Shown here piece by piece: positions 22,780 through 54,293 of a stretch of DNA of 64,000 bases. Below the pieces are notes generated by a model. That model had not been told where the DNA came from, made no database searches, and worked only from the letters and a program-made list of their open reading frames with translations. The stretch lies in NCBI RefSeq assembly GCF_000768705.1, contig NZ_AVPJ01000015.1:1-64000 (forward strand), written 5' to 3'. The DNA is from Knoellia sinensis KCTC 19936 (GTDB taxonomy: Bacteria > Actinomycetota > Actinomycetes > Actinomycetales > Dermatophilaceae). Both the position numbers and the translations under genes were made by a program. The first letter of the stretch is position 1; each line of letters begins with the position of its first letter.

Positions 22780-22835
22780 CACCCAAGATGGCCAGCGAAG
22801 GACAGCCCGGTTGAACCACAGTCGAGGAGTGTCGA

Positions 22836-27765: not shown

Positions 27766-27767
27766 CG

Positions 27768-32741: not shown

Positions 32742-32836
32742 GGGGGTCCTTCCGTGGTGCGTCCGAACGTCGGGCCGGTTGCGACCCAATGCGGCCATGG
32801 GCCGATTCAGCAAGCGGTATGCCGGGTGAGCGGCTC

Positions 32837-32874
32837 AGGAGTCCTGCCCGGCCCGAGGGCCGGGCAGGACTCCT
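32837..32874. terminator. Strong intercistronic hairpin in the nan transporter operon
   Basis: An 18-bp perfect stem (AGGAGTCCTGCCCGGCCC and its complement) with a 2-nt loop lies between the binding-protein gene and dppB. There is no clear U-run. Hairpins at this place often protect or partially terminate the message so that more binding protein than permease is made. Confidence 0.65.
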
Positions 32875-32908
32875 GCGTGGAAGCGGCGCGGTCGCTCCCA
32901 CGCAGAGA

Positions 32909-34540: not shown

Positions 34541-34637
34541 TCTGTGTGCCTCCATTGGCATTCCAGGCGCTGTCGCCATGACCGCTGCAGCGCTGAAGGG
34601 GTCGAAGACATGAGACGAGTCGGAAGATTGGACTTAT

Positions 34638-34657
34638 GACGTCTGATGTCTGATTAC
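34638..34657. promoter_or_regulatory. Putative NanR operator, nanR/transporter intergenic
   Basis: GACGTCTGATGTCTGATTAC matches the site upstream of the sialidase (38411-38430) at 14 of 20 positions. It carries repeated ACGTCT/ATGTCT units in the divergent promoter region. The GntR-type regulator encoded next door is the probable binder. Confidence 0.5.
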
Positions 34658-34700
34658 CGATAGAGTGAGACTGACAGAGAACCGACCGAAGGGCAAGCGA

Positions 34701-35444: not shown

Positions 35445-35472
35445 GGCGGACGGCCCACGCCGACCGATAGCC

Positions 35473-36459: not shown

Positions 36460-36504
36460 TCCGGCCAGCCGCAGTCGCGACCACCCTCGTGCTTGGAAGA
36501 GCGC

Positions 36505-38388
36505 CTATCGCAGGGTCACCTCCTGGCCGCGGTGCTCCACGACGGTGACGTCCTCACCTGAGGTCGAGGTCCACGTCGTGACCGGCGTGAACGAACCGCG
36601 ATCGAGGTCCGCCTGCGTGACGAGGTGGTAGCCGGACCCGCAGTTGTAGGCGTCGTTGCCCGGCAGGTTGCGCCACCGGCAATTGCGCGCGTCGACGTTC
36701 GGGTCGAAGTCGCGCAGGTTGCCTGTCGGGACCACGGTGGTGACCGCGTCGGTGAGGTTCCGCACCCGGAAGGTGAACTGCAGCCGGTCGCCGACGGCAT
36801 ACGGAGTCGTTTTGGGGTTGGTCAGAGTGCCGCCCGTGACGGAGATGCGGCCGTCGACCTCCTCGGGCGTCTTCGGGACGCGCACTGTGATCGTGCCGGC
36901 CGAACTACGGCCGGTGGAGTCCGTGAGGCGCATCGGGATCCGGTGTGTCCCGCCGGGACCTGCTGCGGGCACGGTGATCGTCACCGGCACCGTCGCGGTC
37001 CGACCCGGCGTGATCGCGCCCGGCGAGCTGGCCTCGACGGTCCATCCCTCGGGGCTGTCAAAGGAGAGGGACTCAGGGCGGATGACCGGCCCGAGCTGGT
37101 TGTGGACGGTGAGCTCGGTCGTGAGGCTGGTTCCTCGCTCGGCCGTCACCTCTGGTGCGGTGAGCGGCGCGCACAGGCCTTGGAGCCAGGCCAGGTTGAA
37201 GCGCGCGAACGTCACGGCGTTGTGGCCCGGCTCGTAGAGCAGTCCCACCCCGCCGTCCGGCAGGGTGGCGAGGGTCGAGTACGCCATCTCGCCGGGTGCG
37301 AACACCCGTGCCGCAGGCCAGGTCTGGCCATCGTCGCAACTCATCCGAACCGTGCCGTTGGTGCGGGACGACTGGGTGGCCGCGTTGGAGAACAGCAGCA
37401 CACGCGCCTCGTTCGAACCCTTCGGGGCGTTCGGGAAGGCTCGCACGATCGAGGCGTTGTTGGTCGGGTCGGGCAGTTCCCGGTCAAGGGTCACCTCGCC
37501 GTAGGTGACGCCACCATCGGTGGAGTAGGCGACCTTGCGGTATCCCGAGCGCGCCGAGTCGCGAGAGTTCAGCATGATCCGCCCGTCCGAGAGCTCAACC
37601 GTCTTGTTCTCGTCCATGCCCACACCGACCGGCTTGCCGACCTGCCAGCTCTGGCCGTGGTCGTCGGAGTAGACCGAGACAGCCTGAAACGCGCCGGCTC
37701 CGTTGATGATCGTGAACTGCTGCAGAAGTCGACCGGCGTGCTCGCCGTACTTGAGTTGGATCCCTTGGCCCGACGCCGCGAAACGTGAGCGCCAGCCCAG
37801 ATCGGCGGTGATCTCAGCGGTGATGGTGCGGTGCTGCCAAGTGTGGCCTTCGTCGGTCGACGAGCTGACGTTGGCGTGAAGGACGTTGCGATTGGCGGGA
37901 TCGACGCCGGGCCGAGAGCCGGTGAAGCCTTGGTCCATGGAGAAGACATGGAAGTTGAAGACCGTGCCGGTGGTCCGATCGACGATGTAGCTCGGGTCGG
38001 AGTATCCCTGCTTCTGCGCACCTGCGACTCCGGCGCGGACCACGGTGGTGGGCTGCCAGGTGCGTCCGTTGTCGGTGGAGCGGCGCTGGAGGATGGAGTT
38101 CGGGCCGGGGGCGTCGATGCCCGTGGGTCGACCGTCGTAGGACGCGAGCAGGTCGCCGTCGTTGGTCACGGTCAACGCCGGGATCCGGTAGTTGGGGAAG
38201 ACGCCGTCACCGCCCACGGCGAGGACCTGTTGCTCGTAGAACGGCTTGCCAGCCCAGGGTGGAGTGGCGTCGAAGTCGGCCGCGTGCGGCGTGGCCTGCG
38301 CAACTCCGGCCGAGGCCAGCGTGAGCGCGAGTGTGGCGGAGAGGGTGACGGCGAGGGCGGTGGGAGTTCGGCTGATGACGCGGGTCAT
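36505..38388 (-). CDS. nanH: Secreted sialidase (GH33)
   Basis: 627 residues. Signal peptide residues 1-~32 (ALTLASAGVAQA). The arginine-triad motif is YRIPALT at about 67-73. Five Asp-box-like repeats are visible: STDNGRTWQ, STDEGHTWQ, SDDHGQSWQ, STDGGVTYG, SCDDGQTWP. The catalytic propeller ends near residue 400. The C-terminal ~220 residues are two beta-sandwich modules (GPVIRPESLSFDSPEGWTVE, then VGDRLQFTFRVRNLTDAVTT), probably for carbohydrate or surface binding. It releases terminal sialic acid outside the cell and supplies the importer. Confidence 0.94.
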   Translation of the reverse strand: MTRVISRTPTALAVTLSATLALTLASAGVAQATPHAADFDATPPWAGKPFYEQQVLAVGGDGVFPNYRIPALTVTNDGDLLASYDGRPTGIDAPGPNSILQRRSTDNGRTWQPTTVVRAGVAGAQKQGYSDPSYIVDRTTGTVFNFHVFSMDQGFTGSRPGVDPANRNVLHANVSSSTDEGHTWQHRTITAEITADLGWRSRFAASGQGIQLKYGEHAGRLLQQFTIINGAGAFQAVSVYSDDHGQSWQVGKPVGVGMDENKTVELSDGRIMLNSRDSARSGYRKVAYSTDGGVTYGEVTLDRELPDPTNNASIVRAFPNAPKGSNEARVLLFSNAATQSSRTNGTVRMSCDDGQTWPAARVFAPGEMAYSTLATLPDGGVGLLYEPGHNAVTFARFNLAWLQGLCAPLTAPEVTAERGTSLTTELTVHNQLGPVIRPESLSFDSPEGWTVEASSPGAITPGRTATVPVTITVPAAGPGGTHRIPMRLTDSTGRSSAGTITVRVPKTPEEVDGRISVTGGTLTNPKTTPYAVGDRLQFTFRVRNLTDAVTTVVPTGNLRDFDPNVDARNCRWRNLPGNDAYNCGSGYHLVTQADLDRGSFTPVTTWTSTSGEDVTVVEHRGQEVTLR

Positions 38389-41193: not shown

Positions 41194-42084
41194 GTGCTGA
41201 TCACCACTTCGTCACCGGGCCACCGGGAGGGCAGCCAGTTGAATCAACGGGTTGAGCAAGTGACCGACGTGGTCGCGTACCACGGCGAGGGGCCGGTGTG
41301 GTCGCCGAGTTGGGGCGGGCTGCGCTGGGTGGACATGCTCGCCGGCGACGTCCTCTCGCTCCAGCCGGACGGTTCGGTCGGTCGGCGACACGTGGGCGAG
41401 GTCGCGGCCGCGCTTCGCCCGCGACGCGGTGGCGGTGCGGTGATCGGCATCGAGCGAGGGTTCGCCCTCGAAGACCCGGACGGCAGCGTGCGTGCCCTCG
41501 ACGAGATCTGGGGTGACCCGTCGGTGCGCATGAACGAGGGCGGTTGCGACCCCGACGGCCGCTTCTATTGCGGCTCCATGGCCTATGACCAGGAGGAAGG
41601 AGCGGCCTCCCTCTATCGCCTTGACCCCGACGGCACCATTGTCACGGTGCTCGATGGCCTCACGGTGTGCAACGGTCTGGACTGGAGCCCCGATGGGAGC
41701 CGCGCCTTCCACAACGACACCGCGACCCGCACCATCGCGGTGTACGACTACGACCGCGATGAGGGCCTCACCAATCGGCGAGTCTTCGTGGAGATGGAGA
41801 ACAGGCCCGACGGGCTGACCGTCGATGCCGAAGGCGGCGTCTGGACGGCACTGTCCGACGGTGGCGCCGTCCGTCGCTACTCGCCCGAGGGTGACCTCGA
41901 CGTCGTCATCGAGGTGCCTGCCCACAAGGTCACAGCGTGCACCTTCGGCGGCGAGAACCTCGACGAACTGTTCATCACGACCTCCCGCGAAGGGCTCCAG
42001 CCGGGGGAGGACCCGCTGACGGGCGCACTGTTCCGGGCAGTTCCGGGCGCGCGCGGACTGCCCGTCCGCGAGTTCGCCGGATGA
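41194..42084 (+). CDS. SMP-30/gluconolactonase family protein
   Basis: 296 residues from GTG 41194; TTG 41239 with GGGAGGG upstream is also plausible. Six-bladed propeller with metal ligands: Glu in AYHGEGPVWSP, Asn in SVRMNEGGCDPDGRFYCG, Asn in TVCNGLDWSPDG and the Asp of RPDGLTVDAEGG. Such enzymes open sugar-acid lactones. Its stop overlaps the G6PDH-like gene (ATGA), so the two are coupled. This suggests a dehydrogenase that makes a lactone and a lactonase that opens it to an aldonic acid. Confidence 0.87.
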   Translation: MLITTSSPGHREGSQLNQRVEQVTDVVAYHGEGPVWSPSWGGLRWVDMLAGDVLSLQPDGSVGRRHVGEVAAALRPRRGGGAVIGIERGFALEDPDGSVRALDEIWGDPSVRMNEGGCDPDGRFYCGSMAYDQEEGAASLYRLDPDGTIVTVLDGLTVCNGLDWSPDGSRAFHNDTATRTIAVYDYDRDEGLTNRRVFVEMENRPDGLTVDAEGGVWTALSDGGAVRRYSPEGDLDVVIEVPAHKVTACTFGGENLDELFITTSREGLQPGEDPLTGALFRAVPGARGLPVREFAG

Positions 42085-43421
42085 TCACCAACCTCCTGCT
42101 GTTCGGCGCTACGGGCGACCTTGCCAGTGACCTCTTGCTTCCCGCGTTGGCCGCACTGCGCGCGACCGGTCGGATCGGTGACGACTTCACCGTGATCGGG
42201 ACTGCACGTGACGACATGGACACGAAGGCGTTTCGCGAGCACGCGGCACAGAGCCTCGAGGAGAACGCTTCCCACATCCCGATCGAACACCGGGAGGCCC
42301 TGACCCAGTCGTTGCGGTATCAAGCGGGCGACGCGACGAAGGCTGAGGACGTCGCGGCACTGGTCCGGGAGGCCGGGGACGGCCCGCTCGTCGCCTACCT
42401 TGCGCTGCCGCCCGCCCTTTTCATCCCGTGCATCACCGCCCTCGCCGCGGCTGATCTCTCCGCAGGGAGCCGGGTCGCCCTCGAGAAGCCCTTCGGCGAG
42501 GACCTCGACAGTGCTGTGGAGCTCAACCGCGTGCTGGCTGGTCTGCTCGGTAGCGCCGACGACGAGGCGGCCTACCGGATCGACCACGCCCTCGGCATGT
42601 CGACCGTGCGCAACCTGCTCGACCTGCGGCTGAACGACCCGTTCCTCGCCGCGATCTGGGACGCACAGCACATCGAGCGGGTCGACGTGCTCTGGGAGGA
42701 GGACGACCCGCTCGAGGGTCGCGCCGGCTACTACGACAGCGCGGGAGCCCTCAAGGACGTGGTGCAGAACCACATGCTGCGGGTTCTCGCAGTGGTGGCG
42801 ATGGAACCCCCGGCGGGGCCGGGCGAACAGGAGGTGAAGGAGGCCAAGGTCGACGCCCTGCGCGCGGCCCGCGCGCCTCAGGGCGACGACGCAGCCAGCC
42901 GCACCCGTCGTGCGCGCTGGGCGGCTGGGCGTCTCGGCGACGCCGACGTGCCGGCCTATGTCGACGAGGAGGGAGTCGACCCCTCGCGCGAGACCGAGAC
43001 CTTCGCCGAGGTGGTGCTCGAGATCGACACTCCCCGCTGGCGCGGAACGTCGTTCGTGTTGCGGGCCGGGAAGGCGCTGCGCGTACGGCGCAAGGAGGTG
43101 GTCGTCCACCTTCGTCCGCTCCGGCCGGATGGCCCTCCGGGGCGGCTCGACATCGGCATCGACGGGCCGACGGACATCACCCTGACGCTCCAGGGGAGTG
43201 AGCCGATCATCCTGACCGGGACGCCGCCAGCGTCGCTGCCGCCGTACGCACACGTCCTTCTCGACCTGCTCCAGGGCGGCAGTGCACTGGCGGTGAGTAG
43301 CGGGGGTGCCGAGGAATCCTGGCGGCTGATGGAGCCCGTGCTCGCAGCCTGGAGTGAGGGCCGGGTGCCGTTGGTCGAGTACCCCGCCGGCTCCGACGGG
43401 CCGCCCAGGCTCCTCGGCTGA
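42081..43421 (+). CDS. Glucose-6-phosphate dehydrogenase-like protein with altered substrate site
   Basis: 446 residues. N-terminal NADP motif LLFGATGDLASDLLLPAL, EKPFGEDLDSAVELN and LKDVVQNHMLRVLAVVAMEP are family features. The signature normally reads RIDHYLGK; here residues 166-173 are RIDHALGM. His169 is kept but the Tyr and Lys that contact the sugar phosphate are Ala and Met. The substrate may therefore not be glucose-6-phosphate. It is coupled to an SMP-30 lactonase and followed by a FUSC membrane protein, not by the usual opcA, tal or pgl genes. A main zwf is presumably elsewhere. Confidence 0.8.
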   Translation: MITNLLLFGATGDLASDLLLPALAALRATGRIGDDFTVIGTARDDMDTKAFREHAAQSLEENASHIPIEHREALTQSLRYQAGDATKAEDVAALVREAGDGPLVAYLALPPALFIPCITALAAADLSAGSRVALEKPFGEDLDSAVELNRVLAGLLGSADDEAAYRIDHALGMSTVRNLLDLRLNDPFLAAIWDAQHIERVDVLWEEDDPLEGRAGYYDSAGALKDVVQNHMLRVLAVVAMEPPAGPGEQEVKEAKVDALRAARAPQGDDAASRTRRARWAAGRLGDADVPAYVDEEGVDPSRETETFAEVVLEIDTPRWRGTSFVLRAGKALRVRRKEVVVHLRPLRPDGPPGRLDIGIDGPTDITLTLQGSEPIILTGTPPASLPPYAHVLLDLLQGGSALAVSSGGAEESWRLMEPVLAAWSEGRVPLVEYPAGSDGPPRLLG

Positions 43422-43425: not shown

Positions 43426-44553
43426 ATGCCTCCTCGCTTGCGCCGGGTAGTCGGCCATGCGTGGCCGCTGTTGCAGGCGACCGTCGCGGCGACCACCGCA
43501 TGGGTGATCGCCCGCCAACTGATCGATGACCACATCCCGTTCTTCGCGCCGATTGCGGCGGTGGTGGCTCTCAATGCTTCCCGCGGGGAGCGCGGTCTCA
43601 ACGCGGTGCGCGTGGTGCTTGGCGTCTTCGTGGGCATCGTCGCGGGGGAGGCTGCGGTGGCCGTGCTCGGGGGCGGGGTCGCTTCCTTGGTCGCGGCACT
43701 TCTCGCTGCTCTGGCCGCGGCTCGCCTGCTTGCGAGCGCCACCGTGGTGCTGAACCAGGCGGCAGTGGCGGCGATCCTCACGGTGGTGGCCGCTGATGGT
43801 CAGGCCGGCCCGCAGCGCCTTGTCGACGCACTGGTCGGCGCTGTGGTCGCCCTTGTGTTCACCCAGGTGCTGTTCTCGCCGGAGCCGGTCGGGATGCTGC
43901 GCCGGGCCCAGGGTCAGGCGCTGGCGGGCATCGGATCCGCCCTCGACCACACGGCCCATCTGCTCGATCGAGTCGAGTCCGGCGAGGTCGATGAGGCGAA
44001 CGTGGCTGGCCTGTCACCGATCGAGGTACCCGCTGCGGTTGTGGACCTCGCCAAGGTCCGTCGGGCGACTGACCGGACGGTCCGGCGGTCTGCGGTGTGG
44101 CAGCGGCAGCGGGGCGCGGTCGAGCACGAGCAGCTTCGCGCCGCGACGATCGACCTGCTCTCGGCCAGCAGTCTCATGCTGTGCCGGGTGACCGTGGCAC
44201 TTCCCACGCCCGACCGGGAGCCGTTCGCGCACCTCATCGGTCGACTCGGTGGGGCGCTCGGCCGGCTGGCAGCAGACCCTGCGGATCATGAGGCGCGGCA
44301 ACGCGCAGCCGATGAAGCGCTGACCGCGGTTCATGAGGTCGTCGACAACGCCGACGACGGCGAGCACGAGCGAGGCGCGGCACTGGCGGCGGCCCGGATC
44401 ACCGTCGGGGACCTGCTTGCTGTCGTCGGGGTCGAACCCGACGACGCTGCCCGTGCCATCGAGTCCGGCCGCGACACCGTTGTCGTCGAGAACGTGCCGC
44501 CCGCGCCCAGATTCCCCATCCGGCTCAGCCGGCGCCACCGGCGCCACTGGTGA
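43426..44553 (+). CDS. FUSC-family membrane protein (aromatic-acid-exporter-like)
   Basis: 375 residues from ATG 43426. About six hydrophobic helices in the first 155 residues (LLQATVAATTAWVIARQLI, HIPFFAPIAAVVALNASRGE, VVLGVFVGIVAGEAAVAVLG), then a cytoplasmic helical region. This is the half-size FUSC layout. The family is linked to export or stress tolerance, but the substrate is unknown. It follows the G6PDH-like gene by 4 bp. Its 3' end overlaps the convergent larC gene by 29 bp. Confidence 0.82.
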   Translation: MPPRLRRVVGHAWPLLQATVAATTAWVIARQLIDDHIPFFAPIAAVVALNASRGERGLNAVRVVLGVFVGIVAGEAAVAVLGGGVASLVAALLAALAAARLLASATVVLNQAAVAAILTVVAADGQAGPQRLVDALVGAVVALVFTQVLFSPEPVGMLRRAQGQALAGIGSALDHTAHLLDRVESGEVDEANVAGLSPIEVPAAVVDLAKVRRATDRTVRRSAVWQRQRGAVEHEQLRAATIDLLSASSLMLCRVTVALPTPDREPFAHLIGRLGGALGRLAADPADHEARQRAADEALTAVHEVVDNADDGEHERGAALAAARITVGDLLAVVGVEPDDAARAIESGRDTVVVENVPPAPRFPIRLSRRHRRHW

Positions 44554-45745
44554 GACCGGCGGCCTGCACGGCGGCGGTCGCCTCGGCGAGAACGACACGA
44601 GCGGGTATGCCGGCCGCCTCGGCTGCCGCTCGAACGTCCTCGAACTCGGGGGTCGCGTGCACGACCGCGCCCTCGGCATCGAGCGAGACCTTGATGCGGA
44701 CCTCGTGACCGCGGACCATGGCCGTGTGCCACGCCCGTCCGAGCGAGTGACGCTCCACGGTGTGTTCGCGGACACCCAGCGTCGTCGTGTGGGTCAGGAC
44801 GATGTCACGCAGGGCGACTCGCAACTCGGCGGTGCACAGAACCGAGAGGGTGTGCGCCGGGCGGCCCTTCTTCATGAGGATCGGCGTGAGCCACGCGTCC
44901 GCCGCGCCCCCCGCCATGAGGGACTCGAGGACGCCAGGCCACAGCCGGGGGTCGAGGTCGTCGACGTTGGCCTCCAGGGCCCACATCACCTCTGTCGCAA
45001 CCGTATTCGCTCCGCCTGCCGCGCCCGCATTCTCCCCCAGAACGACACGCACGACGTTGGCCCGCCCGTCGAAGTCCCTGGTGCCCGCGCCAGACCCGCT
45101 GGCAGTCACCCGCATCGGCGGCAGGGGCTCGCACGCGTCGGCCAATCCACGAATGAGCGCCATGCCCGTCGGTGTCGCCAGCTCCCCCTCGCCGACCGCG
45201 GCCACCTCCCAGCCACGTGCGAGTTCGAGCGTGGCGGGGGCCGGGATCGAGACCGTCCCGTGGGCCGTGCGGGCGGTGCCCGAGCCCAACGCGACAGCGC
45301 TCGCGGACACCGACGTCACCCCCAGCAGTTCCAGTGCGGCGCACACCCCGACGACATCGGCGATGGAGTCCCACGCACCGACTTCGTGGAAATGCACGTC
45401 ACCCACAGCGACTCCGTGGACTCGGGCCTCAGCTTCGGCCAAACCCGCGAATACACGAACAGCCCTGTCCCGCAACACATCCGAGACCTCCGCCCCGTCA
45501 AGCATCGAGCGAATCTCAGACCAGCGGCGATGCGGCTGGTCCTCGACCAGCACCTTTACGTCGACCTTGGAGGCCCGCAGCCCCGCTCGGGTCACGTCCC
45601 CGACAACGAGTCGCACGGTCTCGGGCAGCACCGCATCCACGCCAGCCTGAACGTCCTCGAGCGGTGCGCCGGCATCCACGAGAGCGCCGAGCAGCATGTC
45701 ACCGGCGACGCCCGCGCCGGCGTCGATCCACAGGTGGGACGTCAT
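44525..45745 (-). CDS. larC: Nickel insertion protein of the nickel-pincer cofactor pathway
   Basis: 406 residues, starting MTSHLWIDAGAGVAGDMLLG. The His-containing segment VGDVHFHEVGAWDSIADVVG and the C-terminal region LEANVDDLDPRLWPGVLESL, LMKKGRPAHTLSVLC are diagnostic of LarC. LarC loads nickel into pyridinium bis-thiocarboxylate mononucleotide using CTP. In some bacteria larC is split into larC1/larC2 and joined by ribosomal frameshifting; here it is one continuous frame. It follows the gluconokinase gene by 9 bp on the same strand and belongs with larE and larB 7 kb away. Confidence 0.93.
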   Translation of the reverse strand: MTSHLWIDAGAGVAGDMLLGALVDAGAPLEDVQAGVDAVLPETVRLVVGDVTRAGLRASKVDVKVLVEDQPHRRWSEIRSMLDGAEVSDVLRDRAVRVFAGLAEAEARVHGVAVGDVHFHEVGAWDSIADVVGVCAALELLGVTSVSASAVALGSGTARTAHGTVSIPAPATLELARGWEVAAVGEGELATPTGMALIRGLADACEPLPPMRVTASGSGAGTRDFDGRANVVRVVLGENAGAAGGANTVATEVMWALEANVDDLDPRLWPGVLESLMAGGAADAWLTPILMKKGRPAHTLSVLCTAELRVALRDIVLTHTTTLGVREHTVERHSLGRAWHTAMVRGHEVRIKVSLDAEGAVVHATPEFEDVRAAAEAAGIPARVVLAEATAAVQAAGLTSGAGGAG

Positions 45746-45754
45746 TGCCTCACG

Positions 45755-47286
45755 CTAGTCCGCGTCCCGGGACGGGACGTCGAAGAGATCTCGCACCACG
45801 GCATACGAATCAAGAAGGGTCGGGATGCGCCGCCGCGCCGTCTCGTATGCCGTCCGGTCGCCTTCCGAGACCGCCACCACTTCCCCGGACTCCCGGAGGC
45901 CGGGTGCCAGTGCGTCGAGGCCGTCACGCGGGGACGATGCGCGACCGACCGCGACGAGTCCGAGGGCGGCCGCGCCGAGGGCGGAACCTTCGGCGCCACC
46001 AGTGACAGTGAGTGGGCGTCCGAGGACACCCGCCATCACGTCGCGCCAGACCCGTGATCGGAAGACGCCGCCCGTGGCCCGGGCCGAGGTGACCGGGGTG
46101 ACGGCGTCGAGCGCGTCGACGATCGTCCACAACTGGAGTGCCACGCCCTCGACGACGGCTCGCACGAAGTGACCTCGGGTGTGCGAGTGCTGGATCCCGA
46201 TGACCGCGCCGGTGAGGGTCGGATCCCACAGGGGAGCACGCTCGGCAAGGAGGAAGGGGAGCATGACCAGACCGTCGCTGCCCGGCGGAACCGTCGCGGC
46301 CAGCTCGAGCAGCGCCGCGTCGCTCATGCCGGCGTCGCCGAGGATGTCACGGGCCCATCGGATGGAGATTCCCCCATTGCTGATGGCGCCGCCAACGACC
46401 CACTCGTCGTGGGTGAGTGCGTAGCAGAAGAGTCGCCCGCTCGGGTCCGTGCGAGGTCCCTGGACGACCATGCGGGCGGCACCACTCGTGCCGACCGAGA
46501 GCCCAACGACGCCGGGCTCGAGGGCGCCGGTGCCGAGGTTGCCCAGGGGTCCGTCGCCCGCGCCGACGACGACCGGGGTCGCCGTCGCGAGACCGAGGCG
46601 CGACGCAACGGTCTTCGTGAGGCCGAGGACCGCGGTCGTCGGGAGGATGGGTGGCAACTGGTCCTCGCGTATGCCGGCCAGCTCGATCGCTTGTGGGTTC
46701 CACGCACGGGCGGCGGCGTCGAGGAGTCCGCTCCCCGAGGCGGTCGAGAGTCGGTCGCGGACGTGCCGGTGAGCGCCTGGAGGACGTAGTCCTTGAGTCC
46801 GACCCAGGCCCGCACCTTCGCCGCGAGCTCGGGTTCGTTGCGGTTGAACCAGATGAGTTTGCTCAACGGGCTCATCGGGTGGATCGGCGTGCCGGACGCG
46901 CGGTGGATCGCCTCGGCGTCGGACGACGCCCGCAGTTCGGCAGCCTCGGCGACGGCCCGGGAGTCCGCCCACGTCAGGAGGGGCGTGAGCGGCCGCAACT
47001 GTTCGTCGAGCCCGATGAGGCCGTGCATCGCCGTGCTCACCGAGATGCCGATGACGCGAGCGCCCTTGGCGGCCGTGATGACCTCGGCCAGTGCGCCCAT
47101 GACGGCTGCCACGACCGTGTTGGGGTCCTGCACCTGCCAGCCGGGGCGGGGGGCGAGGAGCGGGTACTCACGGACGACCGTGTGTCGCCAGTCGGATCCG
47201 AGCCCGAACGCGACGGCCTTCGTGCCGGTCGTCCCGACGTCGAGGCCGATGACGGCCTCGGCCGGTGGGTGGGCGTTGGGGGCCAT
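45755..47286 (-). pseudogene. gntK: Gluconokinase (FGGY family), one frameshift
   Basis: ATG 47286. First frame: VIGLDVGTTGTKAVAFGLGS (ATP site), ISVSTAMHGLIGLDEQLRPL, LTWADSRAVAEAAEL, ASGTPIHPMSPLSKLIWF, ending LTGTSATD. These are gluconokinase-type FGGY features. One base is missing at about 46745-46752, after GCGACCGAC. The next frame continues LSTASGSGLLDAAARAWNPQ, VVVGAGDGPLGNLGTGALEP, VGTSGAARM and ATGGVFRSRVWRDVMAGVLG to 45755. Joined length ~510 is normal. It would phosphorylate gluconate to 6-phosphogluconate. Since the rest is well conserved, a sequence error or a very recent mutation is likely. Confidence 0.85.
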
Positions 47287-47361
47287 GGCTCAGCCCACGT
47301 CCGGGGGACGCAACATGTCGATGCCTCTCCTTCGTCGGGGGACCAGACTCCCATTCAGTCA

Positions 47362-47404
47362 GGCAACCACCCCGTGGCACAACGATTGCCACCAGTTGCC
47401 ACGA
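47362..47404. promoter_or_regulatory. Putative LacI operators, gntK/lacI intergenic
   Basis: The region holds several (G)TTGCCAC half-sites: GGCAACC at 47362, the inverted repeat GTGGCA...TGCCAC at 47374-47392, and CAGTTGCCACGA at 47393-47404. The last 12-mer is repeated, reversed, upstream of the LarA homologue near 49754-49764. The LacI regulator beside it is the probable binder. Confidence 0.5.
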
Positions 47405-47421
47405 TCCCTAGGTTTGCCTGT

Positions 47422-48498
47422 GTGGAGCGCCGACCGACGATCTACGACGTGGCCAGGGCGGCCGGCGTCGCGGCGTCGACGGTGTCCAGGGCCTTCGCGC
47501 GGCCGGGTCGCGTCATTGCCGAGACGGCTGCGCGGATCTTCGAGGCGGCGCGTGACCTGGGCTATCGCGCGTCGGCGTTGCCCGGGCTCACGACCTCCCG
47601 CACCAAGACGCTCGCCCTCGTCGTCACCGACATCACCAACCCGTTCTATGCCGAGATCATCCGGGGTGCGCACGAGGCTGCCGCCGACCTCGGCTACACG
47701 CTGAGCCTCTCGCACACGCAGGAGGACGCCGAGGTCGAGCGCGCGTGGATCGAGCACGAACTCTCGTCGGTCGAGGGCATGGTGCTCGCGAGCTCGCGCA
47801 TGTCGGACAGCACGATCCGGACCCTGGCCAAGCAGAAGCCCGTCGTCGTCCTCAACCGCCGGTTGCCGGAAGTTCCCTGCCTGCTCGTCGACAACGCCCG
47901 GGGCACTCGCCGTGCACTCGAGCACCTCGGCGAGCTCGGTCACACGTCGGTCACCTATGTCGGCGGACCCGAGTCGAGCTGGACCGACGGCACCCGCTGG
48001 CAGGCGTTGCGGGAGGCGGGTTTCGAGCTCGACATCAAGGTCCGCCGGATCGGCCCCACGCAGAAGCCCACGATCGACGCCGGGTTCGCACGGGTTCGCG
48101 AGATCCTCGCGCAACCGACCACAGCGGTCATTGCCTACAACGACGTGCTCGCCATCGGTGTCATCAAGGGGCTGCACCGCGTGGGCGTCAAGGTGCCCGA
48201 CGACATCAGCGTCATCGGCTTCGACAACGTCCTGCTCGCCGAGGTGATCGAGCCCGAACTCACGACAGTGGCAGCGCCGCTGCGGCAACAGGGTGAGACC
48301 GCCGTTCGCAACCTCGTGGCGCTCACCCAGGGTGCCCACACGACGTCACGTGAGCCGCTCGTCATGCCGGTGCACCTCGTCGTGCGGCGCTCGACCGCTC
48401 AGCGCAGCCGGAAGAGGACCTCGCCGGCGTTGGGCACCACGAATGACTCGTCATCCGCCTCCTCGGCGGCGAGGTCGATGGAATCGGGGTCGACGTAG
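47422..48498 (+). CDS. LacI-family regulator of the uronate/gluconate locus
   Basis: 358 residues from GTG 47422 (VERRPTIYDVARAAGVAAST). Helix-turn-helix TIYDVARAAGVAASTVSRAF, then effector domain TKTLALVVTDITNPFYAEII, AYNDVLAIGVIKGLH and DDISVIGFDNVLLAEVIEPE. It is divergent from gntK-larC and surrounded by the pathway genes, so it should respond to a sugar acid. The last ~33 codons overlap the 3' end of the LarA homologue on the other strand by 100 bp, giving it a Ser-rich tail. Confidence 0.9.
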   Translation: MERRPTIYDVARAAGVAASTVSRAFARPGRVIAETAARIFEAARDLGYRASALPGLTTSRTKTLALVVTDITNPFYAEIIRGAHEAAADLGYTLSLSHTQEDAEVERAWIEHELSSVEGMVLASSRMSDSTIRTLAKQKPVVVLNRRLPEVPCLLVDNARGTRRALEHLGELGHTSVTYVGGPESSWTDGTRWQALREAGFELDIKVRRIGPTQKPTIDAGFARVREILAQPTTAVIAYNDVLAIGVIKGLHRVGVKVPDDISVIGFDNVLLAEVIEPELTTVAAPLRQQGETAVRNLVALTQGAHTTSREPLVMPVHLVVRRSTAQRSRKRTSPALGTTNDSSSASSAARSMESGST

Positions 48499-49703
48499 CC
48501 GAGATTCGCCTGGTGGCACTTCTCCTCGGGGATCCGGGTCGCGAGGGTCACCTTGACTCGCAACCGCTCTTCGCCCGTCTCGGCGTCATAGGTTCCGGCG
48601 CCCCGCAGGTGCGTCGAGTGCGCGAGCGTGCCCCAGTGGATGTGCTTGAACTTGTCCCACTGCTTCACGAAGTAGTCACGGCAGTGGTATCCGATCTCGA
48701 GGATCTCCGGGTGGCTCGTCGAGATCTCGGTGATGTGCGGGGCATAGAGGATGACTTCGCCCCCGTCGGCCACGACCGGCTCGAGCTTGTAGAAGCCCTT
48801 GGCCCCGGTCCAGATGTCGTCGTACATCTCCGGGATGACCGAGATGACGCGTGAGACCGGCTCGTCGAGGTGGTGGACGTGGGTCGCGGCGCTCACCTCG
48901 GAGGCGCTCGCCCAGGAGGCGACCGTGTCGCCGAACGAGATCGAGTGCAGGTCGAGGGTTCCGGCCTCGCCGACGACGCAGAACGCGAGCTTCTCGGCGG
49001 GCACCAGCGCGGCGCCCTCGTTGATGAGGGCGCGCACGGGGGTGACGGCCGTGGTGCCGATGATCTCGACCGAGGTGATGAGCGCCCCGATCCAGTGGGA
49101 GACGTCGATGATGTCCTGGCCCGCGACGCCTGGGAAGAAGTACTTGTTGCCACCGGACATGCCGACGACCTCATGGGGGAGGACCGGGCCGACGACCAGG
49201 GCGATGTCGTGCTCGACGACGGCCTTGTTGAGGTGGACCGGGACATCCATCGTGAGCCGGCCCTCGGACAGTTCGGCGAGGCGCGAGGCAGGGATCGTGC
49301 CGAGGTCGGCGAACGTGGACGGGTCCCACCACTCGTGGTTGGCGACGGTCATCCCCGGATAGGTGTCCTCGAGCGCACCGACCTCGTAGCCGAGGTGCGC
49401 GGCCAGCGCTTCCTCGCTCATCGCCTGGTGTGTCCCGAGCGCGATGAGGGTCGTCATGCGGCTGACTCGCCCGTGAAGGGCGCGGTGGACGGCCCGCAAC
49501 AGCAGCGGCATCGGGCAGGTGCGGGTGCCGTCGGGCACGACGATGCAGACGCTCTTGCCGTCGACGTCGACGCTCCCGAGCCGGTCGACGATGAACTCCG
49601 TGACCTGTTCACTCGTGAGGACGCCGTGCTCGTCGCCGATGCGGGCGGCCCGCTTCGCGGCCTCGGCGGGGGACTCCTCGGTCAGTGTCGCATCGCTGGT
49701 CAT
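48399..49703 (-). CDS. LarA-family nickel-pincer racemase/epimerase (sugar-acid 2-epimerase candidate)
   Basis: 434 residues from ATG 49703. Active-site residues of LarA are all present with the same spacing: Asp58 and Arg61 (VPDGTRTCP), His92 (ALGTHQAM), His177 (LPHEVVGMSGG), Lys187 (GGNKYFFPG, the cofactor-linking Lys) and His203 (VSHWIG). The 10 and 16 residue steps His-Lys-His match Lactobacillus LarA. LarA racemises lactate through a nickel-pincer hydride shift; homologues act on other 2-hydroxyacids, including gluconate/mannonate. No lactate genes are near. With UxaC, UxuB and gluconokinase as neighbours, mannonate-gluconate epimerisation is the best guess. Expression is divergent from uxaC. 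Confidence 0.88.
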   Translation of the reverse strand: MTSDATLTEESPAEAAKRAARIGDEHGVLTSEQVTEFIVDRLGSVDVDGKSVCIVVPDGTRTCPMPLLLRAVHRALHGRVSRMTTLIALGTHQAMSEEALAAHLGYEVGALEDTYPGMTVANHEWWDPSTFADLGTIPASRLAELSEGRLTMDVPVHLNKAVVEHDIALVVGPVLPHEVVGMSGGNKYFFPGVAGQDIIDVSHWIGALITSVEIIGTTAVTPVRALINEGAALVPAEKLAFCVVGEAGTLDLHSISFGDTVASWASASEVSAATHVHHLDEPVSRVISVIPEMYDDIWTGAKGFYKLEPVVADGGEVILYAPHITEISTSHPEILEIGYHCRDYFVKQWDKFKHIHWGTLAHSTHLRGAGTYDAETGEERLRVKVTLATRIPEEKCHQANLGYVDPDSIDLAAEEADDESFVVPNAGEVLFRLR

Positions 49704-49743
49704 GACCTCACTCTCGTCCCGGGCTCCACGGCTGGCAAGGGTG

Positions 49744-49764
49744 CGGTGCAACTCGTGGCAACTG
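49744..49764. promoter_or_regulatory. Putative LacI operator, larA homologue/uxaC intergenic
   Basis: GTGCAACTCGTGGCAACTG contains GTGGCAACTG, the reverse of the CAGTTGCCAC site beside gntK and lacI. It lies in the 98-bp divergent promoter region. This would place both arms of the locus under one regulator. Confidence 0.45.
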
Positions 49765-49801
49765 ATGGACCACGCGGTTGCGCAAGGCCACGATCGTGAA
49801 C

Positions 49802-51205
49802 ATGACCTCACTCCACCCGGACCGGCTCCTGCCAGCCGATCCCGGCACCCGCGACGTCGCCCGCCGCCTGTATGCCGCGATGGCAGACCTGCCGATCATC
49901 TCGCCGCACGGTCACGTACCTCCGGAGTGGCTGGCCGAGGACACTCCCTTCACTGACCCGACGTCGTTGCTGCTGTCGCCCGATCACTACGTCTTCCGGC
50001 TCCTCCACGCGCAGGGCGTGGACCTCGCCGACCTCGGCGTCGGGGGCGCGCAACTCGACGAGGCCGGGTCGCGACGCGCCTGGACGTTGTTCTGCGAGAA
50101 CTGGTCGGCCTTCCGCGGGACGGCGAGCAGGTTCTGGATGGAGAGCGTCCTCGCCGACGTCTTCGGTCTTGCGGAGTCGCCGTCGGCAGAGACGGCCGAC
50201 ACGATCTACGACCACATCGCCGCGGCGCTGACGACACCCGAATTCCGGCCCCGGGCCCTGGCGGAGCGCTTCAACATCTCGGTGCTCGCGACGACGGACG
50301 ACCCGGTGGACAGCCTTGAGCACCACCGCACCCTGGCCGCGGACTCGTCGTTCGCGACGCGAGTGGCACCGACGTTCCGCCCGGACCGCTACCTCGAGCC
50401 CGTGCGTCCGGACTTCGCCGAACTCGCCAAGTCGCTGGGTGCGGCCGCGGACATCGACACCACGACCTACGCCGGCTACATCGCCGCCCTCGAGAACCGG
50501 CGCCGTTTCTTCAAGGACAACGGCGGCGTCTCCACCGACCACAGCCATCTGGACGTCGTGACGCTCACCCTCGAGCCCGCCGAAGCATCCAGGATCTATG
50601 CCGCGGCCCTGGCCGGTGAGGCCAGCGAGGACGAGGCCACGGCGTTCCGCAGGCACATGCTCGTCGAGATGGCCCGCATGGCCACCGAGGACGGGCTCGT
50701 CATGACGCTCCATCCGGGCGCGCTCCGGAACCACCACATCCCGACGTTCGAGCGCTTCGGAGCCGACACGGGCCACGACATCCCCGTCGGCGTCGAATTC
50801 ACGCGGGGGTTGCAGCACCTCCTCAGCCGCTTCGGGACCTCCGACGGCTTCCAGCTCATCCTCTTCACGCTGGACGAGACGGTCTTCTCGCGCGAGATCG
50901 CGCCGCTCGCCGGCTTCTACCCCAGCGTGTATGCCGGTGCGCCCTGGTGGTTCCTCGACGCACCCGAGGCGGTCCGCCGCTACCGTGGTGCCGTGACCGA
51001 GACCGCTGGTTTCCATCGCACCTCGGGCTTCATCGACGACACCCGAGCGTTCCTCTCCATCCCGGCACGGCACGACATGTCGCGTCGTCTCGACGCGGCA
51101 TACCTCGCGCAGTTGGTCGCCGAGCACCGGCTCGACGAGGACGAGGCCCACGAGACGGCCATCGATCTCGTGACAACGGTCCCGAGCAAGGCGTTCAAGT
51201 TGTGA
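49802..51205 (+). CDS. uxaC: Glucuronate/galacturonate isomerase
   Basis: 467 residues from ATG 49802 (MTSLHPDRLL); a TTG at 49778 is possible. Features: DLPIISPHGHVPPEWLAEDT with His36 and His38, FNISVLATTDDPVDSLEHHR, LHPGALRNHH and KDNGGVSTDHSHLDV. These are uronate isomerase motifs of the amidohydrolase superfamily. It converts D-glucuronate to D-fructuronate (or galacturonate to tagaturonate). It overlaps the next gene (GTGA), so its product is passed straight to the reductase. Confidence 0.92.
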   Translation: MTSLHPDRLLPADPGTRDVARRLYAAMADLPIISPHGHVPPEWLAEDTPFTDPTSLLLSPDHYVFRLLHAQGVDLADLGVGGAQLDEAGSRRAWTLFCENWSAFRGTASRFWMESVLADVFGLAESPSAETADTIYDHIAAALTTPEFRPRALAERFNISVLATTDDPVDSLEHHRTLAADSSFATRVAPTFRPDRYLEPVRPDFAELAKSLGAAADIDTTTYAGYIAALENRRRFFKDNGGVSTDHSHLDVVTLTLEPAEASRIYAAALAGEASEDEATAFRRHMLVEMARMATEDGLVMTLHPGALRNHHIPTFERFGADTGHDIPVGVEFTRGLQHLLSRFGTSDGFQLILFTLDETVFSREIAPLAGFYPSVYAGAPWWFLDAPEAVRRYRGAVTETAGFHRTSGFIDDTRAFLSIPARHDMSRRLDAAYLAQLVAEHRLDEDEAHETAIDLVTTVPSKAFKL

Positions 51206-52608
51206 GTGCCGAGACCGGGAACGTGCCGCGACTCTCGCGGGCCGAGCACGGGCGGGCTGCTTCACCGGTTCGCGTCGTCCACCTCGGCCTCGGCAACTTC
51301 TTCCGCGCCCACGCCGCCTGGTACACCGAGCACGCGCCCGACGCAGCCGAGTGGGGTATCGCCGCGTTCACGGGGCGGTCGCCGGACGCCGCTGAGTCGC
51401 TGGGCGCCCAGGACGGTCTCTACACCCTGCTGGTCCGGGCGGCGGATGGTCCGGAGCCGGAGGTCATCTCCAGCCTCTCGGCGGTGCATCCCGGGGCCGA
51501 TCTCGCCGCGCTGCGGGACTACTTCGCCCGGCCGGAGGTCGCTGTCGTCACGATCACCGTGACCGAGGCGGGCTACCGGCGAGCGTCAGACGGTTCCCTC
51601 GACCTCGACGACGAGGCGGTCGCCGCTGACATCGCGGCACTCAGGGATGACCCCGCGGGTGACGACGTCTCGACGACACCGGGTCGGCTGGTGGCGGGGC
51701 TGCTGGCCCGTCGGGACGCGGATACCGGCGGGATCGCGATCGTTCCCAACGACAACGTCCCCGACAACGGGGCCATGGTCGCGCGGGTCGTCGGCGACCT
51801 CATCGCCGAGGTGGACCCCAGTCTCCAGGAGTGGGTCGACGCCTACGTCTCCTTCGTCACGACGATGGTCGACCGGATCACGCCTCGCACCACCGACGCC
51901 GACCGCTCCGAGGTGAAGACGCTCCGCGGGGTGGACGACCCCGAGGTCGTGCCGACCGAACCCTTCAGCGAGTGGGTCCTCGCCGGCGAGTTCCCCGGTG
52001 GGCGGCCCGCGTGGGATGACGCCGGGGCCACCGTCGTCGACGACGTCGCCCCGTTCGAGCAGCGCAAGCTGTGGCTCCTCAACGGATCGCACTCGCTCAT
52101 GGCCTACGCAGCGTCGATCCGGGGCCACGAGACCGTCGCTGACGCCATCGCCGACTCGCAGGTACGCGAGTGGGTGGAGGAATGGTGGGACGCCGCCGCA
52201 CCACACGTGCCGCTCCCGGAAACGGACGTCACGGCATACAGGAAGGCCTTGATCGAGAGGTACTCCAACGGCAACATCCGCCACCTCCTCGCCCAGATCG
52301 CGGCTGACGGATCGCAGAAGATCCCGATTCGAGCGGTGCCGGTCATCAAGGCCGAGCTGGGCGCGGGGCGGGTCAGTGAAGGGGCGTTACGACTGGTGTC
52401 GGCATGGATCGCGCACCTGCGCGGCTCGGGGGCTCCGGTGACCGACCCACAGGCAGATCTGCTCCAGGGGCTCGTGACCGGCTCGGTCGACAACGGCGTC
52501 GATCGAGTCCTCGAGTGGCTCGGACTCAAGGACGGGCAGTTGCGCGATGTCGTCGTCCAGCAGGTCACCGACCTTGAGGCACCAGGCGCCACGAAGGAGG
52601 AGAAGTGA
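51202..52608 (+). CDS. Mannitol dehydrogenase family protein, probable fructuronate reductase
   Basis: 468 residues from GTG 51202. N-terminal NAD motif VVHLGLGNFFRAHAAWYTEH, then IAIVPNDNVPDNGAMVARVV, SFVTTMVDRITPRTT and FEQRKLWLLNGSHSLMAYAA with the catalytic Lys and the Asn/His pair. The long-chain polyol dehydrogenase family includes UxuB (fructuronate to mannonate), UxaB and mannitol dehydrogenase. Coupling to uxaC favours UxuB (or UxaB). Confidence 0.88.
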   Translation: MSAETGNVPRLSRAEHGRAASPVRVVHLGLGNFFRAHAAWYTEHAPDAAEWGIAAFTGRSPDAAESLGAQDGLYTLLVRAADGPEPEVISSLSAVHPGADLAALRDYFARPEVAVVTITVTEAGYRRASDGSLDLDDEAVAADIAALRDDPAGDDVSTTPGRLVAGLLARRDADTGGIAIVPNDNVPDNGAMVARVVGDLIAEVDPSLQEWVDAYVSFVTTMVDRITPRTTDADRSEVKTLRGVDDPEVVPTEPFSEWVLAGEFPGGRPAWDDAGATVVDDVAPFEQRKLWLLNGSHSLMAYAASIRGHETVADAIADSQVREWVEEWWDAAAPHVPLPETDVTAYRKALIERYSNGNIRHLLAQIAADGSQKIPIRAVPVIKAELGAGRVSEGALRLVSAWIAHLRGSGAPVTDPQADLLQGLVTGSVDNGVDRVLEWLGLKDGQLRDVVVQQVTDLEAPGATKEEK

Positions 52609-52694
52609 CCGCGACGAACGTCGACCAGGACTGGCCGACGAAGGAGTCCACCGACTCGGAACCCACGTCGAGGACCCGACCGCCCTGGGCCTGA
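52605..52694 (+). CDS. Possible 29-residue leader peptide or relic
   Basis: GTG 52605 overlaps the uxuB-type stop (GTGA) and has AAGGAGG just upstream. It encodes TATNVDQDWPTKESTDSEPT and a short tail. I do not recognise it. It may be a small peptide, or the start of a lost gene, since an alternative frame stays open into larE. Confidence 0.3.
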   Translation: MTATNVDQDWPTKESTDSEPTSRTRPPWA

Positions 52695-52747
52695 GCCTGC
52701 CCCGGGTTCGTGTCCGGCGTTCAGTGTTCAGTGAGAAGGTGGAAGGC

Positions 52748-53614
52748 ATGGAGGACGTGACGTTCGGCCAGGACCAGACGAGAGTCGAGGACGTCCTTGG
52801 CGCGTTCGGCCCGTTCGAACGGGTCGGGGTGGCCTATTCCGGGGGCGTCGACTCGGCGACGCTGCTGGCGCTGGCCGCCCGAGCGCTCGGGCCGGATCGG
52901 GTCGTCGCCGTTCTCGGCGTCTCGCCCAGCCTCGCTGCTGCCGAACGGGCCGGAGCCCACGACGTCGCCGCCTTCATCGGTGTCCCGGTCGTCGAGGTGC
53001 GGACCCACGAAGGTGACAACCCGGCATACCAACGCAATGGTCCGGACCGCTGCTTCCACTGCAAGGACGAGCTGTTCACCCGCATCGACGGCTCGGTGGC
53101 GACTGTGCACCGGCTCGACGTCATCGCCTACGGCGAGAACGCCGATGACGCGCGGCGGCCCGACCGGCCGGGTTCGCGGGCGGCCTCGGAGCATGCCGTG
53201 CTGCGTCCGCTCGCCGATGCCGGACTCGACAAGGCGGCCGTGCGTCGGATCGCCCGCGTGCTCGAGTTGCCGTGCGCCGACAAGCCGGCCGCGCCCTGCT
53301 TGGCCTCGCGGATCCCGCACTTCGAGGAGGTGTCCCCGGAGAAACTTGCCCAGGTCGAGGCAGCTGAATCGGCCCTGAGGGCACTGGGATTCGTCGACTG
53401 CCGGGTTCGGCACCATGGTGAGATGGCACGCGTGGAGTTGCTCGTGGAGGACATTCCGCGTGCGGTTGCGCCGGGTCTGCGCGAGGACATCAACGCGGCG
53501 CTGCGGTCGGCCGGCTTCCGCTTTGTGACGATCGATCTGGCGGGGATCCAGTCAGGTGCGTTCACACTGCCCTTGGTTGCCGGGTCTGCCGGGGTTGCAG
53601 CAAGTCATGGCTGA
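52748..53614 (+). CDS. larE: ATP-dependent sacrificial sulfur transferase LarE
   Basis: 288 residues from ATG 52748. PP-loop AYSGGVDSATLLAL (Ser31-Ser36), RCFHCKDELFTRI (Cys102, Cys105) and ADKPAAPCLASRIPH with Cys184. In Lactobacillus LarE the equivalent Cys176 gives up its sulfur to the cofactor precursor. A Cys here, and not several, points to the sacrificial type; Cys102 and Cys105 leave some room for a cluster-using type. It adds sulfur to the LarB product. It overlaps larB by 8 nt. Confidence 0.93.
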   Translation: MEDVTFGQDQTRVEDVLGAFGPFERVGVAYSGGVDSATLLALAARALGPDRVVAVLGVSPSLAAAERAGAHDVAAFIGVPVVEVRTHEGDNPAYQRNGPDRCFHCKDELFTRIDGSVATVHRLDVIAYGENADDARRPDRPGSRAASEHAVLRPLADAGLDKAAVRRIARVLELPCADKPAAPCLASRIPHFEEVSPEKLAQVEAAESALRALGFVDCRVRHHGEMARVELLVEDIPRAVAPGLREDINAALRSAGFRFVTIDLAGIQSGAFTLPLVAGSAGVAASHG

Positions 53615-54293
53615 CGAGTGGGAGCCGGGCGAGGCGTTGCGCGACATCGCCGACCTCGACCTCGACCGCGCGGCCCGGCGCGGCTACCCCGAAGCGGTCT
53701 ACTGCGAGGGCAAGACCGCCGAGCAGGTCGGCGTCATCGCCGCGGCGGTGGGGGAGCGCGGGGCGCGGACCCTGTTCACCCGGGTCGACAAGGCACACGT
53801 CGAGGCCATCCTCGCCGCCTTGCCCGATGCCGCTCACGACCAGACGGCGCGCCTGGTGGCCTGGCCCCCGTCGCCTCCGGAGCCGAGCGGGGGCCAGGTG
53901 CTCGTCGTTGCGGCGGGGACGTCGGATCTGCCTGTCGCGAGGGAGGCGTTGCTCGTCGCGCAGCACTTGGGCCGGTCCGCCGACCTGATCGTCGACGTCG
54001 GCGTCGCCGGGTTGCACCGGATCCTGTCGCGGCTCGACGAGTTGCGGTCGGCTCGGGCCATCGTCGTGGTGGCCGGAATGGACGGCGCCTTGCCCGGTGT
54101 CGTCGCGGGTCTCGTGTCGGCGCCCGTGATCGCGGTGCCGACGTCGGTCGGCTATGGCGCGGCCTTCCAAGGGCTCGCACCTCTCCTCACGATGCTCAAC
54201 AGCTGCGCTCCCGGGGTCGCGGTCGTCAACATCGACAACGGCTACGGCGCCGGTCACATGGCGGCCCAGATCGCCGCACCAGTGACATCCTGA
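53607..54293 (+). CDS. larB: Pyridinium-3,5-biscarboxylic acid mononucleotide synthase LarB
   Basis: 228 residues from ATG 53607. The N-terminal part (DLDLDRAARRGYPEAVYCEG, KTAEQV) and the AIR-carboxylase-like C-terminal domain (VLVVAAGTSDLPVAREALLV, VVVAGMDGALPGVVAGLVSA, AVPTSVGYGAAFQGLAPLLT) are typical of LarB. It carboxylates and hydrolyses nicotinic acid adenine dinucleotide, the first cofactor step. It ends the uxaC-uxuB-larE-larB operon. Confidence 0.93.
   Translation: MADEWEPGEALRDIADLDLDRAARRGYPEAVYCEGKTAEQVGVIAAAVGERGARTLFTRVDKAHVEAILAALPDAAHDQTARLVAWPPSPPEPSGGQVLVVAAGTSDLPVAREALLVAQHLGRSADLIVDVGVAGLHRILSRLDELRSARAIVVVAGMDGALPGVVAGLVSAPVIAVPTSVGYGAAFQGLAPLLTMLNSCAPGVAVVNIDNGYGAGHMAAQIAAPVTS

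Follow-up and report, generated by a model that had tools for sequence, protein, structure and literature searches.

We report that a 64,000-nucleotide stretch of the Knoellia sinensis KCTC 19936 genome (hereafter the window; the genome is G000, a draft assembly of 3.99 Mb in 61 contigs with completeness 100) carries eight clustered genes, larC, a gluconokinase gene (gntK), lacI, a larA homologue, uxaC, a uxuB-type reductase gene, larE and larB, and that this locus very probably is a self-contained glucuronate catabolic cluster, which bypasses mannonate dehydratase (UxuA) via a LarA-type 2-epimerase. Specifically, UxaC would isomerise D-glucuronate to D-fructuronate, and the UxuB-type enzyme would reduce this to D-mannonate. 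LarB, LarE and LarC would make the nickel-pincer nucleotide carried by the LarA homologue, which would invert C2 of mannonate by proton-coupled hydride transfer to give D-gluconate; gluconokinase would then form 6-phosphogluconate, and 6-phosphogluconate dehydrogenase (Gnd) would convert it to ribulose 5-phosphate, CO2 and reduced cofactor. A repressor of the LacI family is predicted to bind a GGCAAnnnnTTGCC-type palindrome before lacI and in the larA/uxaC gap (in Knoellia, a drifted form of it), and in some relatives the same locus would also import and hydrolyse glucuronides using a GPH transporter and beta-glucuronidase (UidA).

An earlier reading of the window from its letters alone (the sequence-only reading) had proposed the same path from glucuronate over fructuronate, mannonate and gluconate to 6-phosphogluconate. 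It is supported by the absence of UxuA and 2-keto-3-deoxy-6-phosphogluconate (KDPG) aldolase, by kinship with GntE2, and by linkage with uxaC, uxuB, gntK, gnd and uidA. Gene content, the absence of UxuA and KDPG aldolase, the active-site residues, the predicted fold, the recurrence of the locus and the operator-like sites are direct observations of the present analysis.

Gene content of the locus

All eight genes listed in the sequence-only reading were recovered in one block by profile matches; start codons of the window genes are predictions. On the minus strand, larC (44525-45745), for nickel insertion into the nickel-pincer nucleotide cofactor, matches NCBIfam LarC1 (199.6 bits, cut-off 90) and LarC2 (133.6, cut-off 50) and Pfam Ni_insertion (427.3 bits), and lies next to an FGGY-type gntK, which is broken (45755-47286, minus strand). 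The LacI-family regulator is encoded on the plus strand (47422-48498; Pfam LacI 46.5 bits, cut-off 27; Peripla_BP_3 117.1 bits, cut-off 26.5) and the LarA homologue, a proposed GntE-like D-mannonate/D-gluconate 2-epimerase, on the minus strand (48399-49703; Pfam Lar_N 82.9 bits, cut-off 23.3). The remaining four genes are on the plus strand: uxaC for glucuronate isomerase (49802-51205; NCBIfam PRK02925 565.9 bits, cut-off 387; PDB 2q01, uronate isomerase, E-value 2e-135); the uxuB-type gene (51202-52608; Pfam Mannitol_dh N and C), the product of which is proposed to convert fructuronate to mannonate and has fructuronate reductase as its best NCBIfam match (239.8 bits, below the cut-off of 603); larE for the sulfur transferase of cofactor synthesis (52724-53614; TIGR00268 269.8 bits, cut-off 150); and larB for the first enzyme of cofactor synthesis (53607-54293; NF033503 283.3 bits, cut-off 175). 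The previously noted overlaps agree with the predicted gene coordinates, with uxaC ending at 51205 and uxuB starting at 51202 (4 bp), and larE ending at 53614 and larB starting at 53607. Hence the trio for cofactor synthesis, larB, larC and larE, is entirely inside the locus, each member scoring above its NCBIfam cut-off. Many genera have these genes side by side (see below), which makes the clustering more than chance.

The LarA homologue

The best solved relative of the LarA homologue is PDB entry 4NAR (E-value 1.1e-66), i.e. Thermotoga maritima GntE2, described in PMC7583248 as an assayed mannonate/gluconate 2-epimerase. In the PDB this entry carries the name of a putative uronate isomerase, which could lead annotation astray. 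The two proteins are identical at 145 of 393 aligned positions (37%), and 4NAR is the top fold match of the AlphaFold2 model (TM-score 0.81; mean predicted local distance difference test score 84.2), with 9eia and 6c1w among the other matches. By alignment to 4NAR, the catalytic residues D58, H92, H177 and K302 correspond to D72, H108, H174 and K298 of LarA, and the cofactor residues R61, K187 and H203 to R75, K184 and H200 (LarA numbering as in PMC7583248). The substrate loop following H177 reads E178-V179 and alpha-11 carries W298; according to PMC7583248, E-V/S after H174 together with a W in alpha-11 is the signature of LarA groups 18, 19 and 20. The catalytic and cofactor residues, the E-V loop and the alpha-11 W are invariant in all covering rows of our tree alignment, 44 from the window clade (clade A) and 15 from a distant clade (clade B), where rows shorter than 300 residues were left out and a merged 765-residue frame from locus L041 was trimmed to its last 450 residues.

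Judging from its Lar_N domain, fold, residues and linkage with larB, larC and larE, the protein is predicted to be a nickel-pincer nucleotide enzyme of the LarA superfamily. It bears the GntE-type (groups 19/20) signature, and we propose epimerase activity. That LarA homologues interconvert gluconate and mannonate, as stated in the sequence-only reading, is borne out by the activities demonstrated in PMC7583248 and PMC11770544.

Mannonate enzymes in G000 and distribution across the order

The sequence-only reading had regarded a uxuA-kdgK set elsewhere in the genome, under the same LacI operators, as evidence against the route. In the G000 genome neither UxuA (PF03786; control matches in 5 of 14 genomes) nor KDPG aldolase (PF01081; control matches in 8 of 14) gave a match, while 2-keto-3-deoxygluconate (KDG) kinase was not searched for. 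The PfkB family, which includes KDG kinase, is broad. A ManD-type dehydratase was also rejected: the three MR_MLE_C proteins in G000 are two of o-succinylbenzoate synthase type, above cut-off, and an enolase (by eye). On these results the condition named in the sequence-only reading does not count against the route. The 6-phosphogluconate dehydrogenase needed for the last step is present in G000 and is of the short type (337.3 bits, cut-off 297.2).

The order was surveyed in 396 genomes, taking clade A LarA as the window clade at at least 53% identity. Clade A was found in 45 genomes (G000 counted; the gene is split over two contigs in G015 and a fragment in G029) and clade B in 20, while UxaC is present in 172 and UxuA above cut-off in 56 (60 matches less four below cut-off; clade A genomes contain none of the 60). 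UxaC accompanies clade A LarA in 43 of the 45 genomes, compared with 129 of the 351 others, and UxuA is absent from all 45 even at an E-value of 1e-3. Among genomes with UxaC, UxuA occurs in none of the 43 with clade A and in 48 of the 129 others. Expressed as genera, 60 have UxaC, 17 of these clade A, 20 UxuA and none both (p 4.6e-4 in a Fisher test that does not correct for shared ancestry). Moreover, KDPG aldolase is absent in 18 of the 45 clade A genomes, to be compared with 2 of 35 sampled from the 48 having both UxaC and UxuA.

Loci in relatives

Named loci were taken from the best 80 of 577 relatives, and a second set of loci from the order survey; some stretches are cut by contig ends, and the two sets overlap (L042/L101, L044/L112 and L050/L149 are identical stretches, and more exist). 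Among these best 80 of 577, the closest LarA match is that of Knoellia sp. Soil729 (89%), and the loci have uxaC in 46, uxuB in 47, both in 42, uidA in 18, gnd in 16 and gntK in 15 (14 at at least 45% identity), with no UxuA in these stretches. The co-occurrence that the sequence-only reading suggested searching for is seen in some of these loci. In the 44 clade A loci of the order (window left out, stretches up to 20 kb) uxaC was found in 27 and uxuB in 29.

Locus L042, from the congeneric genome G296, comprises genes for a GPH transporter, uxuB, uxaC, larA, lacI, beta-glucuronidase (882.1 bits, cut-off 544), gnd (645, cut-off 426.7), an intact gntK, larC, larE and a larB truncated where the stretch ends. 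The transporter is closest to a glucuronide transporter model (514.2 bits, below the cut-off of 528). Similarly, L053 has beta-glucuronidase (888.1 bits, cut-off 544), lacI, larA, uxaC, uxuB, gntK and a GPH transporter (391.7, cut-off 528). If the assignments hold, L042 would encode the conversion of glucuronide to ribulose 5-phosphate end to end, and therefore points to glucuronate as the physiological substrate.

Other arrangements were also seen. In L041, from G122 of the same genus, larC-larA-larE-larB are present with an orphan LarA (89% identical), and uxaC, uxuB, gntK and lacI are absent from the stretch. A pair encoding a Gfo/Idh/MocA-type oxidoreductase and a TIM-barrel (IolE-like) protein adjoins the cluster in several genomes, e.g. 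at L042:4712-6772 and L051:7207-9242.

Group 18 LarA proteins

Clade A and clade B are approximately 26% identical and separated with full support in the tree. With the NPN_18_hexonate model (NF052594, cut-off 500), three proteins of clade B reach 583-587 bits and represent LarA group 18, for which hexonate epimerisation is only supposed in PMC7583248; the window protein scores 164.3 bits and misses this cut-off, so that its own LarA subgroup is named by best match and context. The two clades share the E-V loop and the W, and also the proximity to uxaC and uxuB. Loci were fetched for 16 of the 20 clade B genomes (G105, G119, G285 and G295 left out), and the clade B gene is near uxaC and uxuB in eight of the 16, with a gntK match in seven (six at at least 45% identity), gnd in five, larB in seven and larE in seven. 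That two distant LarA enzymes lie beside the same mannonate-making and gluconate-using genes argues that the step itself is conserved.

The remaining eight of the 16 loci are all in genera of one family (f14), and in two of them (L086 and L092) the neighbours are housekeeping-like by eye. Here the group 18 larA genes (L086:8768-10084 and L092:9103-10419) lie beside a leuA-like gene (by eye), away from uxaC. A locus with both mannonate exits was seen on contig 50 of G387 (L097 covers 5000-24900), where UxuA, uxuB, uxaC, lacI, larE, larB and a clade B larA are found together.

Considering both clades, 56 of the 124 UxaC genomes of the order without UxuA have clade A or B LarA. On balance we lean, if only slightly, towards the view that in this roughly half of them the use of glucuronate and glucuronides is nickel-dependent and runs through one LacI-controlled regulon covering uptake, cleavage, cofactor synthesis and the path from mannonate and gluconate to the pentose phosphate pathway, that the window clade and group 18 hold the same step, and that group 18 would accordingly also be a gluconate 2-epimerase.

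Operator-like sites

Allowing up to one mismatch, we found the palindrome GGCAA(n)TTGCC in 24 of 43 larA/uxaC divergent regions (shuffle mean 1.3) and in 15 of 25 regions upstream of lacI (shuffle mean 1.1), and a 14-bp spacing accounts for 20 and 14 of these matches, respectively, compared with 0.3 each in the shuffles. The half-site was picked from a site seen in L053 and then tested; the regions include duplicate genomes and are not all independent, and the shuffles preserve base content only. Exact palindromes occur in clade B loci, in the lacI/larE gap (L094, L095, L096 and L100), between lacI and uxaC (L097) and between larA and uxaC (L098). These exact sites beside larE and uxaC suggest that cofactor and pathway genes share an operator type.

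In the window, an earlier palindrome scan with a central CG gave no site in the corresponding regions. The pattern KGCMACNNGTKGCM occurs twice in the 64 kb, both times in a divergent region: at 47387-47400 (plus strand, TGCCACCAGTTGCC, between gntK and lacI) and at 49747-49760 (plus strand, TGCAACTCGTGGCA, between larA and uxaC); 0.06 occurrences are expected, a figure that is not independent as the pattern was written after the sites had been seen. Separate support for this Knoellia pattern comes from its presence between larA and uxaC in L042 (9648), L043 (9499), L102 (1772) and L103 (3648). Similar sites lie between lacI and uidA in L042 (11995) and L103 (6002), a second match is in L043 at 15671, and none was found in L041 or L047. 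The window operator seems to be a drifted form of the palindrome.

Evidence against the route and alternative explanations

Several observations weigh against the nickel-dependent route. To begin with the distribution, 68 of the 172 genomes with UxaC contain no UxuA and no LarA of clade A or B, so that a missing UxuA does not by itself mark this route. UxuA is present in seven of the 20 clade B genomes, and G387 has UxuA and its clade B gene within approximately 12.5 kb of each other in one stretch. Two genomes, G122 and G097, carry clade A LarA and have no UxaC in the genome, and 22 of the best 80 of 577 named clade A loci lack uxaC, uxuB, gntK, uidA and gnd in the stretch; some of these are short contigs, and several Kribbella loci are full length, among which L125 and L128 are flanked by oxidoreductases and a cysteine-synthase-like gene (by eye). 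From the loci without uronate genes, and from G122 and G097, it follows that the clade A enzyme also serves elsewhere. In the window itself, the GGCAAnnnnTTGCC pattern was not found in the larA/uxaC region when one mismatch was allowed.

The reductase and the kinase both score below the equivalog cut-offs of the families after which they are named. The reductase was named by best match and context, and the model for D-arabinitol 4-dehydrogenase (DalD) scores it almost equally (234.5 bits, cut-off 600); this model outscores fructuronate reductase for the reductases of L094 and L077, and the nearest solved chain to the window reductase is a mannitol dehydrogenase. In Brachybacterium-like loci (genus g26) the FGGY kinase nearby is just approximately 30% identical, and that of L077 is nearer xylulokinase (175.5 vs 152.2 bits).

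The gluconokinase of the sequence-only reading is present as a gene, though not as one open frame, and this counts against a working route in G000. The gene is split over two frames that join at about 46747-46753, with TIGR01314 positions 2-170 and 171-453 in the two halves; these align with the intact gene of G296 at its residues 3-181 and 180-507. A one-base assembly error and a real lesion would look alike here. The cluster in G000 might therefore be decayed or repurposed, with the route being lost and LarA kept for another use as in G122, a genome in which FGGY kinases are only distant (28-32%) and the lar genes stand apart from uronate genes. We regard this as unlikely: each of the seven other genes is one open frame, both kinase halves are 87% identical to the relative, a 61-contig draft assembly could hold a one-base error, and a second gluconokinase, of the SKI type, is encoded on contig 33 of G000 (194.8 bits, cut-off 113.75).

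The order of the last two steps could in principle be reversed, with mannonate being phosphorylated first, by the FGGY kinase, and the resulting 6-phosphomannonate then epimerised to 6-phosphogluconate by the LarA homologue. The intact L042 kinase, at 390.2 bits, does not reach the equivalog cut-off for gluconokinase (648.55), phosphorylation before epimerisation is described for cell extracts of Lactobacillus suebicus (PMC6978723), and the assayed LarA epimerases have high Michaelis constants (KM) for free mannonate (PMC7583248). The reported values for LarA-type enzymes, 17, 120, 9.4 and 3.8 mM (PMC7583248, PMC11770544), also weigh on the proposed route as such, because they suggest that the natural substrate may differ from mannonate. 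Free mannonate is nevertheless turned over by GntE2 at 197 and by an oomycete GntE at 111 per second (PMC7583248, PMC11770544), the invariant acidic E178 in the substrate loop would be unfavourable to phosphate, and the nearest PDB relative of the kinase, 3gbt, is named gluconate kinase. Taken together this makes a kinase-first order improbable.

A comparably low probability applies to the LarA homologue acting on another hexonate or aldarate (altronate/allonate or glucarate/mannarate) in a uronate side branch, a role suggested for group 19 in PMC7583248, where the KM of GntE1 is high. The closest NCBIfam model of the window protein, the cut-off of which it misses, is likewise just for a putative hexonate epimerase. 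Against this stand the gluconokinase, and in some relatives gnd, in the same locus; scanning the window genes and 6 of the 17 gene calls of L042 brought up no aldarate or altronate enzyme (no genome-wide search was aimed at altronate dehydratase). Moreover, UxaC and UxuB would stop at mannonate, with no other recognised exit when UxuA is absent. Finally, an ordinary lactate or malate racemase lying by chance beside uronate genes, which the shared superfamily and the Pfam name Lar_N would allow, deserves hardly any credence given the weak scores with the two racemase models (68.2 vs 460 and 87.1 vs 500 bits), the E-V loop, which is F-F in LarA and Y-K in Mar2 (PMC7583248), and its linkage to uronate genes across tens of loci.

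Neighbouring genes in the window

Just upstream of the cluster, at 41260-43421 on the plus strand, an SMP-30/gluconolactonase-like gene overlaps a glucose-6-phosphate dehydrogenase gene, and their products could feed gluconate or 6-phosphogluconate. Further away, on the minus strand, is a cluster of sialic acid type (26111-38388) with NanE, an ROK kinase, a DHDPS-family lyase and a BNR sialidase-like protein, interspersed, by eye, with genes for peptide-type ABC transporters; an IS4-type transposase gene is located at 2405-3577 (minus strand).

Relation to known systems and implications

The sequence-only reading knew of no description of the full route as one locus, which is too strong a statement of novelty. 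A route from mannonate over gluconate to gluconokinase has been proposed for galacturonate use in Thermotoga (Rodionova 2012, as told in PMC6978723), where the gnd-uxaRED-gntEK locus (PMC3750489) has gntE next to gntK and gnd, and GntE has been demonstrated to act as an epimerase (PMC7583248, PMC11770544). What holds as new is the UxuA-less actinobacterial locus with its own cofactor genes: by title and abstract, the CC-licensed literature searched contained no UxuA-less glucuronide-to-pentose-phosphate locus of actinobacteria with its own larB, larC and larE. Also new are the breadth of this locus, its operator, a setting in which the nickel enzyme looks obligatory, and the function likely for group 18; the chemistry had been described before, as had the concept of such a route.

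While the window LarA shares its catalytic residues and fold with T. maritima GntE2 (LarAH20; Q9WYS3), the loci differ. That of Thermotoga concerns pectin and galacturonate, has a GntR-family regulator and is accompanied by a kdgA-kdgK-uxuB-uxuA operon, according to the descriptions cited, whereas the window locus concerns glucuronate, has its cofactor genes inside and a LacI regulator, and G000 lacks UxuA and KDPG aldolase. According to PMC3750489, T. maritima fails to grow on gluconate, glucuronate or galacturonate, so that the Thermotoga route lacks in vivo support there; this is a further point against the route proposed here. An actinobacterial mannonate/gluconate 2-epimerase, GntE1 (LarAH19) of Corynebacterium glutamicum, is described in a uronic acid context in PMC7583248; NF052594 gave no match in the C. 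glutamicum control genome at an E-value of 1e-3, which leaves a tie between GntE1 and the window clade tentative. The hybrid isomerase/phosphoketolase pathway of L. suebicus also takes mannonate to 6-phosphogluconate without UxuA, and differs in that it phosphorylates before epimerising, starts from galacturonate and has no known genes, as told in PMC6978723. With the canonical UxaC-UxuB-UxuA-KdgK-Eda route the window route has its first two steps in common.

The in vivo roles of nickel-pincer enzymes are named as an important remaining question in PMC7583248. We infer the substrates of the LarA homologue, the reductase and the kinase, the regulation, and the nickel dependence of growth, and the loci described here offer a direct genetic test, as the LarA-type epimerase looks like the sole exit for mannonate and lies together with its cofactor genes and operator. 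If the proposed route is true, a carbon-source phenotype would hinge on nickel, and the locus would provide a compact gene set for engineering. Glucuronate carbon would then join the pentose phosphate pathway, with its reducing power, and not the Entner-Doudoroff route.

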